DNA of 48,007 bases, from assembly GCA_035703895.1 (NCBI GenBank), contig DASSXJ010000233.1, positions 1 through 48,007 on the forward strand, read 5' to 3'. The position numbers and the translations under genes are program-made. Every line of letters begins with the position of its first letter. The stretch's first letter is position 1. The DNA comes from a bacterium (GTDB lineage Bacteria > Sysuimicrobiota > Sysuimicrobiia > Sysuimicrobiales > Segetimicrobiaceae). Positions 4,748 to 11,779 of this stretch are shown piece by piece. Below the pieces are notes generated by a model, which was not told where the DNA came from, searched no databases, and worked only from the letters and a program-made list of their open reading frames with translations.

Positions 4748-6103
4748 CTAGCTCTGCCGGACTTGCACGTCGGATTCCGGCTGAACGTCTTCCGGCGGGC
4801 GGGGGGCGAGCATCCTGGCCAGCGTCTTCCCCAAGCGACGGTTGAGCGCCGACAAGATCGCACGCGAGACGGCGACGTGCGGATCGGGGGCGCTCGCGCT
4901 GCCGACCAGTCGCTCCGCGGTGTCGGCGGCGCCGACCAGCACCGCGACCGCCACGGTCTCTTTCTCGGCCGGCGTGACCGACAGATCGTCGAGGAGAAAC
5001 CCCGGCTCCTCGCCAATCGCCTGGGCGATGGCCCGAAGGGTGGCGTCGGCAACCAGAAACGGCGTGCCGTGCCCGTGGATTCGCGCCGACGCAGATCCTC
5101 GCAGCGGGCGGCCACCGAGGTCCAGCTCCACCACCGCGGTACTCCCGTGCGTGTCCCGGTCCACGCGCGCCAGCGCGAGACGCAGGCGTATTTCCTCCGT
5201 GCGCGGGACCGGCTCGCCCCCGGGGTGGGCGTGGTCCTCATCCCGCCGGCTGTGGTGAACAATGCCCTGCCCGGACTCCTTTGCCAGCGTGGAGCCCCGG
5301 CTCGCCAGCGTCAGGAGATCCTCCACCGTCGACGCGATATGCGAGGCAGTGCGCCGCTCAATTCTACGCCCTCCGGCGAACCCGATCGCCGCCGTGACCC
5401 GCTCTTCTACACCCCGGATCTCGACCGGCAAGTTCACCGTATCCCGAAGCCGCTGAGCCAGCGCGCGCGCGTCCTCGCTCCGCCGTGTCGTCGCGATCGC
5501 AAACTCGTCGCCGGCGTACCGGCACAGCAGATCGGTCTCCGGATCGATTTGGCTCTCGAGTAAATACCCCACGGAGCGGATGATGTCGTCGCCCACCACG
5601 TGCCCGAGCGCCTTGTTGACGATCCTGAAGTTGTTCATATCGATGAAGAGAATCGCCACTTCCTGGCCGCGTTCGAGCGCGGCCGCGGCCCAATTTCGAA
5701 GGGCGGTCGCCCACGGCAGGCCGGTCATCGGATCGCGTTCCTGGCTCCTGGCCTCGAGCACCGCGGTCAGGGTGATCAGACCGACGAGATGCCCCTGATC
5801 GACGACGGGGAGAGCGGCCGCGCGCTGCCGGGTGAGCAGCTCGTACGCCTGTCCGAGGGGAAGATCGGGAGTCGCCGCCGCAACGTCGGTGGTCATGACC
5901 TCGGCGACCGTCCGGTAGAGCGGCTGACGGAGCAGTTGCAATGGCGTGACGAACCCCACCAATCGATCGCCGTCGACAACCGGCACCCCAGCGTGCCCGC
6001 CCTCGCGGATGAGGTCAATGGCGGCGCCCACGGATGCCGATCCGGCAACCGGGGTTGGGGCCGGCGTCATCAAGTCCGCGACCGTCCGGGGGGATTCTCT
6101 CAT
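4748..6103 (-). CDS. CBS-CBS-GGDEF diguanylate cyclase-like protein with extra C-terminal domain
   Basis: 451-residue cytoplasmic signalling protein without membrane segments. Tandem CBS domains (about 7-58 and 66-116) would sense a nucleotide ligand. A GGDEF domain (about 124-290) has DPMTGL at 124-129, FIDMNNFR around 153-160 and the active-site loop A197-G-D-E-F201, so the first Gly of GGDEF is Ala. The inhibitory I-site RxxD just upstream is PETD (188-191), lacking Arg, so classical product inhibition is unlikely. Some AGDEF enzymes are known to be active, so c-di-GMP synthesis remains plausible. Residues from about 320 to 440 (VELDLGGRPLRGSA, AILSALNRRLGKTL) form a further domain that I do not recognise. 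It converges on the dpp-like operon. Confidence 0.88.
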   Translation of the reverse strand: MRESPRTVADLMTPAPTPVAGSASVGAAIDLIREGGHAGVPVVDGDRLVGFVTPLQLLRQPLYRTVAEVMTTDVAAATPDLPLGQAYELLTRQRAAALPVVDQGHLVGLITLTAVLEARSQERDPMTGLPWATALRNWAAAALERGQEVAILFIDMNNFRIVNKALGHVVGDDIIRSVGYLLESQIDPETDLLCRYAGDEFAIATTRRSEDARALAQRLRDTVNLPVEIRGVEERVTAAIGFAGGRRIERRTASHIASTVEDLLTLASRGSTLAKESGQGIVHHSRRDEDHAHPGGEPVPRTEEIRLRLALARVDRDTHGSTAVVELDLGGRPLRGSASARIHGHGTPFLVADATLRAIAQAIGEEPGFLLDDLSVTPAEKETVAVAVLVGAADTAERLVGSASAPDPHVAVSRAILSALNRRLGKTLARMLAPRPPEDVQPESDVQVRQS

Positions 6104-11176: not shown

Positions 11177-11199
11177 GCGACATCGATCACTAGAAAGCC

Positions 11200-11233
11200 G
11201 GGGGGCCGCACCCACCCCAGAGCGCGGCCCTCC
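11200..11233. terminator. Stem-loop between convergent genes, likely terminator
   Basis: GGGGGGCCGC (11200-11209) pairs with GCGGCCCTCC (11224-11233), ten pairs including one G-U, with a 14-base loop. It follows the stop of the DSD1-like gene by 24 bases and sits 43 bases from the stop of the convergent small gene, so it could serve both. No long T tract follows. Confidence 0.55.
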
Positions 11234-11275
11234 GTGTTCGCCTGCGGTGTCCGGCCCGCAGACCTTTCAATCCTT

Positions 11276-11509
11276 CTATTCGGTCATCGTGGCGCAGTCG
11301 AAGGCGGTGCTGCTCTTGTCGTTCCCTCCGGCGCCTCGTCCCTTTGACCCCGTGTGACAGTTGCTCTGAACGTCCCCGTTGTGATCGTCCGCACTGACGC
11401 CCTGGATCCCCGTCCCGCTGAACGTGAAGGTCGCGTACGAGAACCCAAACGCGGGGAGCGCCACCATCACCATGACGCCCGCAATCCTGGCGAAGCAGAC
11501 CCGACCCAT
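11276..11509 (-). CDS. 77-residue secreted protein under c-di-GMP riboswitch control
   Basis: No recognised family. The ATG at 11509 has SD GGGAGG (11517-11522) with a 7-base gap. Residues 1-26 form a signal peptide (basic start, VMVMVALPAFGF core, cleavage probably after SYA). The mature part of about 50 residues is rich in Gly, Ser, Asp and Asn and has two cysteines (C51 and C72) that could form a disulfide outside the cell. The frame stays open 33 codons upstream, but those codons lie in the riboswitch and have no SD. Its 5' leader is a GEMM-I riboswitch, so expression should follow cyclic di-GMP. An extracellular or surface role is inferred from the signal peptide and the control. Confidence 0.75.
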   Translation of the reverse strand: MGRVCFARIAGVMVMVALPAFGFSYATFTFSGTGIQGVSADDHNGDVQSNCHTGSKGRGAGGNDKSSTAFDCATMTE

Positions 11510-11527
11510 TGCACTGCCTCCCGTTCG

Positions 11528-11618
11528 CCGCCCGGCAGCCCGGCTGACTTGCCAGGTACCTGGCCTGTCCCGAGGCTTTGCGTCCCCAGGTCTCCCTGGG
11601 TTTGCCACTTACGAGCGG
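11528..11618 (-). promoter_or_regulatory. Cyclic-di-GMP-I (GEMM-I) riboswitch
   Basis: Read on the minus strand from 11618. P1 pairs CCGCTCG (11612-11618) with CGGGCGG (11528-11534), one G-U. The conserved GGCAAACC is 11606 to 11599; the G before CAAACC (11605) matches Vc2 G20, which favours c-di-GMP over cGAMP. P2 is CCCAGG/CCTGGG closed by a GAGA tetraloop (GNRA). The invariant GACGCAAAGCC is 11584 to 11574. P3 is GAC/GTC, an AG/AA internal loop, then GCCAG-GTAC-CTGGC. AGCCGGGCTGCC is 11545 to 11534, with C at 11535 matching Vc2 C92. The SD of the 77-residue gene begins 5 bases after P1. GCCTC in the core could pair with GAGGC of the SD, suggesting translational control, possibly an ON switch. 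Confidence 0.92.
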
Positions 11619-11624
11619 TGTTTG

Positions 11625-11654
11625 TTTATGGCACCCCTTGTGTTGCCCCGAAAA
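11625..11654 (-). promoter_or_regulatory. Weak candidate promoter for the riboswitch transcript
   Basis: CATAAA (11625-11630, minus strand) lies 6 bases upstream of the first paired base of the riboswitch, which is the expected distance for a -10. The matching -35 (TTTTCG, 11649-11654, 18-base spacer) is poor. Position supports it more than sequence. Confidence 0.3.
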
Positions 11655-11779
11655 CTCCCAACGGAGACCCCGGGACGTTCCGCTGAACCTCTCCCCAGGC
11701 GCGAAGGAGTTCAGATCCGCATGGCGAACAGGTGTTCGAAACGCAAGATTGTCGCTGTGTCCACAGGTGGTGGGACAAG

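Follow-up and report, generated by a model that had tools for sequence, protein, structure and literature searches.

The closest described counterparts of the leader RNA considered here are the Vc2-type c-di-GMP-I (GEMM-I) riboswitches of Rfam family RF01051 and the GEMM-Ib cGAMP riboswitches of Geobacter, which share that family and fold and have A at position 20, whereas G occupies this position in the aptamer of the window (the whole stretch of DNA that was analysed, 48,007 nucleotides). GEMM-Ib riboswitches sensing cGAMP have been described from Geobacter (PMC6456294, PMC8835794), and a G20A mutant also binds cGAMP (PMC7288161). The collagen-binding surface protein CbpA of B. thuringiensis, which is under a c-di-GMP riboswitch (PMC7423583), resembles the window locus in that such a riboswitch lies upstream of an exported protein (export being predicted for the window protein), whereas the product in the window would be a mature peptide of ~37 aa with no known family. 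The lineage concerned, CSP1-3/Sysuimicrobiota, comprises one class and one order (PMC11604079). The reading preferred here, with a probability of about 0.72, is that a c-di-GMP-I riboswitch controls the translation of a 77-aa precursor, which would be exported and cut to the ~37-aa peptide, likely a minor component of the surface or matrix.

RF01051 was the sole Rfam family above its curated cut-off in the whole 48-kb window (cmscan), with a minus-strand match at 11616..11531 that covers model positions 1-87 of 87 at 73.3 bits (E 1.3e-12) against a gathering cut-off of 35 bits, which bears out the identification of the leader as a c-di-GMP-I riboswitch by a sequence-only reading of the same DNA. 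Together with the 7-bp P1, the aptamer occupies 11528..11618 on the minus strand, and the GEMM-I elements listed in that reading were all found in the sequence: P1 (CCGCUCG, 11618-11612, paired with CGGGCGG, 11534-11528); GGCAAACC between P1 and P2, which contains the position-20 G (11606); P2 with its GAGA cap (CCCAGG-GAGA-CCUGGG, 11600-11585); GACGCAAAGCC directly after P2 (11584-11574); a long P3 running down to AGCCGGGCUGCC; and the equivalent of C92 (11535). Through the cmscan alignment and our own alignment to Vc2, whose position numbering we take to apply here, the ligand contacts G20, A47 and C92 are all present. The full-length match, the core, the P1-P3 architecture and the G20 and C92 equivalents are the same as in the Vc2 type, whereas the long P3 and the G in place of A at position 18 (11608) are different; the elements of the core stood as claimed, but its departure at position 18, where most lineage relatives have A, had been missed. 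In the Vc2 structure 3IRW, A18 is listed among the contacts (PMC7288161), and the affinity of the window aptamer may therefore differ, while its membership of RF01051 is secure because the family score stands without A18, which is not a rule of membership in Rfam. All 200 dinucleotide shuffles folded less well than the leader (z -3.2), and the helices covary, with both-sided (compensatory) changes in 14 of the 21 predicted consensus pairs across 36 copies from the window genome and its relatives; its variable position keeps P1 out of this set of pairs. By these comparisons, the RNA is a standard c-di-GMP-I riboswitch, of a known class that is frequent in the lineage.

Downstream of the aptamer, the open reading frame on the minus strand (11276..11509, with its ATG at 11509 and its stop ending at 11276) encodes 77 residues, as had been counted before, and the Shine-Dalgarno (SD) sequence GGGAGG (11522-11517) lies 5 nt past P1, also as noted before, and 7 nt ahead of the ATG. 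The product has an N-terminal hydrophobic segment at about residues 4-18 and, at residues 40-42, an A-D-D that is invariant in the alignment of four homologues and is read as a probable signal-peptidase-I site, in agreement with the export signal suggested earlier. Residues 1-40 (11390..11509, minus strand) would form the putative signal peptide, with a predicted cut between SA and DD, and the following 37 aa (11279..11389, minus strand) the putative mature peptide, which reads DDxNGDxxSNCHTGxxGxGAGGNDK..DC in the homologue alignments and holds both conserved cysteines. Homologues are 49-59% identical to the window protein, and the mature half is more conserved than the signal half in the comparison with those of G005 (e.g., 64% vs 37%). 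The presence of homologues in sister genomes, the codon-position GC (0.53/0.55/0.84) and a dN of 0.25-0.46 that is well below dS (>1 or saturated) indicate that the ORF is a real gene under purifying selection. No match to the product was obtained in Pfam, NCBIfam and PHROGs at E<=1 and a PDB profile search with its motif gave nothing at E<=10, in keeping with the earlier statement that it belongs to no known family, while an AlphaFold model of the single 77-aa sequence was uninformative (pLDDT 48.9). A calcium loop of the dockerin or excalibur kind, considered for DxNGD, is supported by no Pfam or NCBIfam profile. As far as these searches indicate, the family is undescribed and rare, and export is the only function indicated.

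The aptamer and the gene occupy an intergenic stretch (11177..11779), in which the gene has no companion and is flanked by a divergent MrfA-type helicase with DEAD, MZB and HRQ1 winged helix domains and a convergent, aldolase-like gene of the alanine-racemase-N/D-serine-dehydratase-like kind. The helicase and the aldolase-like gene are separated by 603 nt in the window vs ~143 nt in G001, a sister species of the same genus, where the site is empty of both aptamer and gene. The syntenic position beside the helicase in G002 holds a pseudogene copy with an in-frame TGA (C3:41881), whose leader can be aligned to the aptamer of the window (score 51 vs a shuffle mean of 20.2, sd 3.6, 0/1000) but has lost the core GGCAAACC and GACGCAAAGCC and now folds poorly; aptamer and gene were thus both present at this site in the past and have both decayed. 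Three intact homologues with the frame kept were found in two related genomes, at G002 C3:11208-11432 (G002a), G005 C40 and G005 C47, and the family was present in 3 of 12 genomes of the bacterial family. No aptamer was detectable before these three, and an Rfam search of the homologue loci at E<=1 returned no GEMM, remnants being observed only at the G002 pseudogene; the proposed tie of riboswitch and protein thus holds in the window but is not general for the family. The leader of G002a was also considered as a degenerate GEMM and rejected, as 915 of 1000 shuffles scored as well in the aptamer part. What G002a shares with the window is the region upstream of the aptamer and not the aptamer itself (11626..11760, minus strand; local alignment 46 vs a shuffle mean of 19.4, sd 3.4, 0/1000), likely a promoter region, in which a sigma-70 consensus was not found. 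G002a lies elsewhere than the syntenic site, in an island with a Gly-rich secreted protein and a pseudopilin-like operon, which adjoins it and which we read as GspH/PilV/PilW/PilX-like from its sequence (a Pfam scan of the PilX-like member was negative). Ahead of the helicase, CGAACAGGTGTTCG at 11725-11738 is an SOS box of the LexA type (GAAC-N4-GTTC), ~40 bases from the helicase start (11780), and a perfect CGAAC-N4-GTTCG was observed before the same helicase in 7 of the 8 relatives read, which suggests SOS control of this repair helicase.

Nine RF01051 matches over the cut-off were detected in this genome and 4-13 per genome in 11 other genomes of the family, and the genes downstream of GEMM-I in this genome or its relatives encode CAP-domain proteins, peptidase M64, a GspH-like pseudopilin, a T2SSE/PilT-like ATPase, a sigma-70 factor and Gly-rich secreted proteins. 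In L025, L043, L046 and L049, ahead of CAP-domain and other secreted proteins, the SD lies within the 3' strand of P1 (e.g., CTCCTCC/GGAGGAG), and a compact switch that turns OFF on ligand binding is predicted for them on that ground; the SD of the window differs from those of these relatives in lying just outside P1. Clustered or tandem arrangements, with two or three copies on a single strand within ~0.1-2 kb, were observed at G005:C57 (L020/L034), G010:C4 (L024/L038/L049), G008:C39 (L026/L039), G040:C4 (L028/L040) and G012:C43 (L044), and the copy of L044 at 1501-1640 carries a ~60-base hairpin insertion in P3. Three copies of the window genome, at L002, L007 and L009 (G000 C250, C187 and C30), have A20, the cGAMP-type base, yet none of the GGDEF domains with a readable core showed the Hypr GHxxGS. 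One of the 12 GGDEF domains of the genome lies in the window, in a protein encoded at 4748-6103 on the minus strand; it reads AGDEF and is accompanied by two CBS-like repeats (CBS-CBS-GGDEF by our own domain reading).

Control in the window is probably translational, since no terminator-like site was found on this strand between the aptamer and the ATG; the ligand-bound class-I riboswitch in the 5' leader would thus act on the translation of a monocistronic gene, the precursor from which would be exported and then cut to a Gly/Asp/Asn-rich peptide with two cysteines. The CUGCC of the aptamer is complementary to a GGCAG that overlaps the SD, and CUGCUUC in codons 4-6 is a second possible anti-SD. 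With RNA 3' ends at +3 and +10, the SD openness was 0.36-0.92 in the aptamer-forced fold vs 0.31-0.33 when the 5' strand of P1 was kept single, and with longer 3' ends a hairpin with CUGCUUC was predicted to close the SD in both states. An ON switch is very slightly favoured over OFF, because folding of the aptamer on ligand binding would take CUGCC away from GGCAG at the SD, a picture that CUGCUUC blurs, and the predicted openness depends on the 3' end. GEMM aptamers that closely resemble one another are described as acting as ON or OFF switches (PMC9262584).

The motif of the mature peptide was also observed outside the stand-alone genes. A paralogue in G002 has a signal sequence resembling that of the 77-aa protein and then (QGNGG)n, and the (QGNGG)n repeat with which one contig opens ends in three units like DPDITGDIHSNNHTGSKGKGAGGDD, the motif units of this Gly-rich repeat protein being in tandem and without cysteine. 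Such (QGNGG)n repeats end L061 and start L079 (the end of G002 C3 and the start of C13), and the two ends may represent one gene split across contigs. A 123-aa protein of a Thermoleophilia MAG has a single hydrophobic segment followed by a C-terminal EPDSNGDLHSNCHTGSKGRGAGGNDKPGN and is probably membrane-anchored. Further convincing members were found neither in the class Thermoleophilia (399 genomes) nor in its phylum Actinomycetota (396 genomes), a weak match from this search (G489) had no motif when read, and a motif search of viral contigs, phages and plasmids gave no match. A new c-di-GMP-controlled family of exported mini-peptides of ~37 aa with the pattern DxNGDxxSN(C)HTG..GAGGNDK, occurring as a single peptide, as units of Gly-rich repeats or, in another phylum, as an anchored tail, and forming a structural or metal-binding module at the cell surface, can be proposed from these sequences only tentatively, with the odds against it.

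Several other explanations bear on the individual parts of the preferred reading. The expected ligand is c-di-GMP, given the G at position 20 and the 12 GGDEF domains that the genome encodes; at least 8 of these domains read GGDEF or GSDEF, and the GHxxGS change of the Hypr type was not found among those with a readable core. It is very improbable that the aptamer senses cGAMP as a GEMM-Ib or is promiscuous instead of selective for c-di-GMP: one Rfam family spans both ligand types, the aptamer departs from the consensus at position 18, and A stands at position 20 in three further GEMM copies of this genome, but the window copy has G where GEMM-Ib has A, and the Hypr signature is missing from the readable cores. 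Still less credible, and largely refuted by the sequence comparisons, is a non-coding ORF beside an RNA that acts alone, since homologues with a conserved frame, a dN far below dS, the SD and ATG in place and the codon-position GC pattern all oppose what the very short gene and the lack of a database family might suggest.

The pairing could also be incidental or in decay, with the aptamer in front of this gene by chance and the window copy being lost as in G002. GEMM pairing with this protein family is not conserved, and the intact homologues without aptamer, the syntenic G002 pseudogene behind a decayed aptamer and the empty G001 site all speak for this explanation, yet the ORF and all core positions of the window aptamer but 18 are intact, and the joint decay in G002 suggests that both formed one functional unit, so that this explanation is considered unlikely. 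Doubtful to a similar degree is a mature peptide that acts as a diffusible signal or like a bacteriocin and not as a structural surface component; no immunity, export or processing gene was recognised beside any homologue, and the motif recurs as cysteine-free tandem units in the Gly-rich repeat protein and forms the C-terminal end of the probably anchored Thermoleophilia protein, against which stand the tiny product, its two cysteines, the patchy presence in the family genomes and the stand-alone gene.

In the preferred reading, an exported peptide under c-di-GMP-I control, the product most likely acts extracellularly, as a minor component of the surface or matrix, because the ~9 GEMM-I targets are mostly cell-surface, pilus and secreted factors, and the conjectured role in the sessile state would agree with the rest of the regulon, such as the CAP proteins, the pseudopilin, the PilT-like ATPase and the Gly-rich secreted proteins. 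The locus would represent one more output for the c-di-GMP network of a GEMM-I-rich lineage, and its product a short conserved, putatively extracellular motif without a known family. With joint decay in one sister species and an empty site in another, it also appears as a small case of riboswitch-gene units coming and going, and, should the peptide prove to be a genuine surface factor, its riboswitch would show when the cell makes it.
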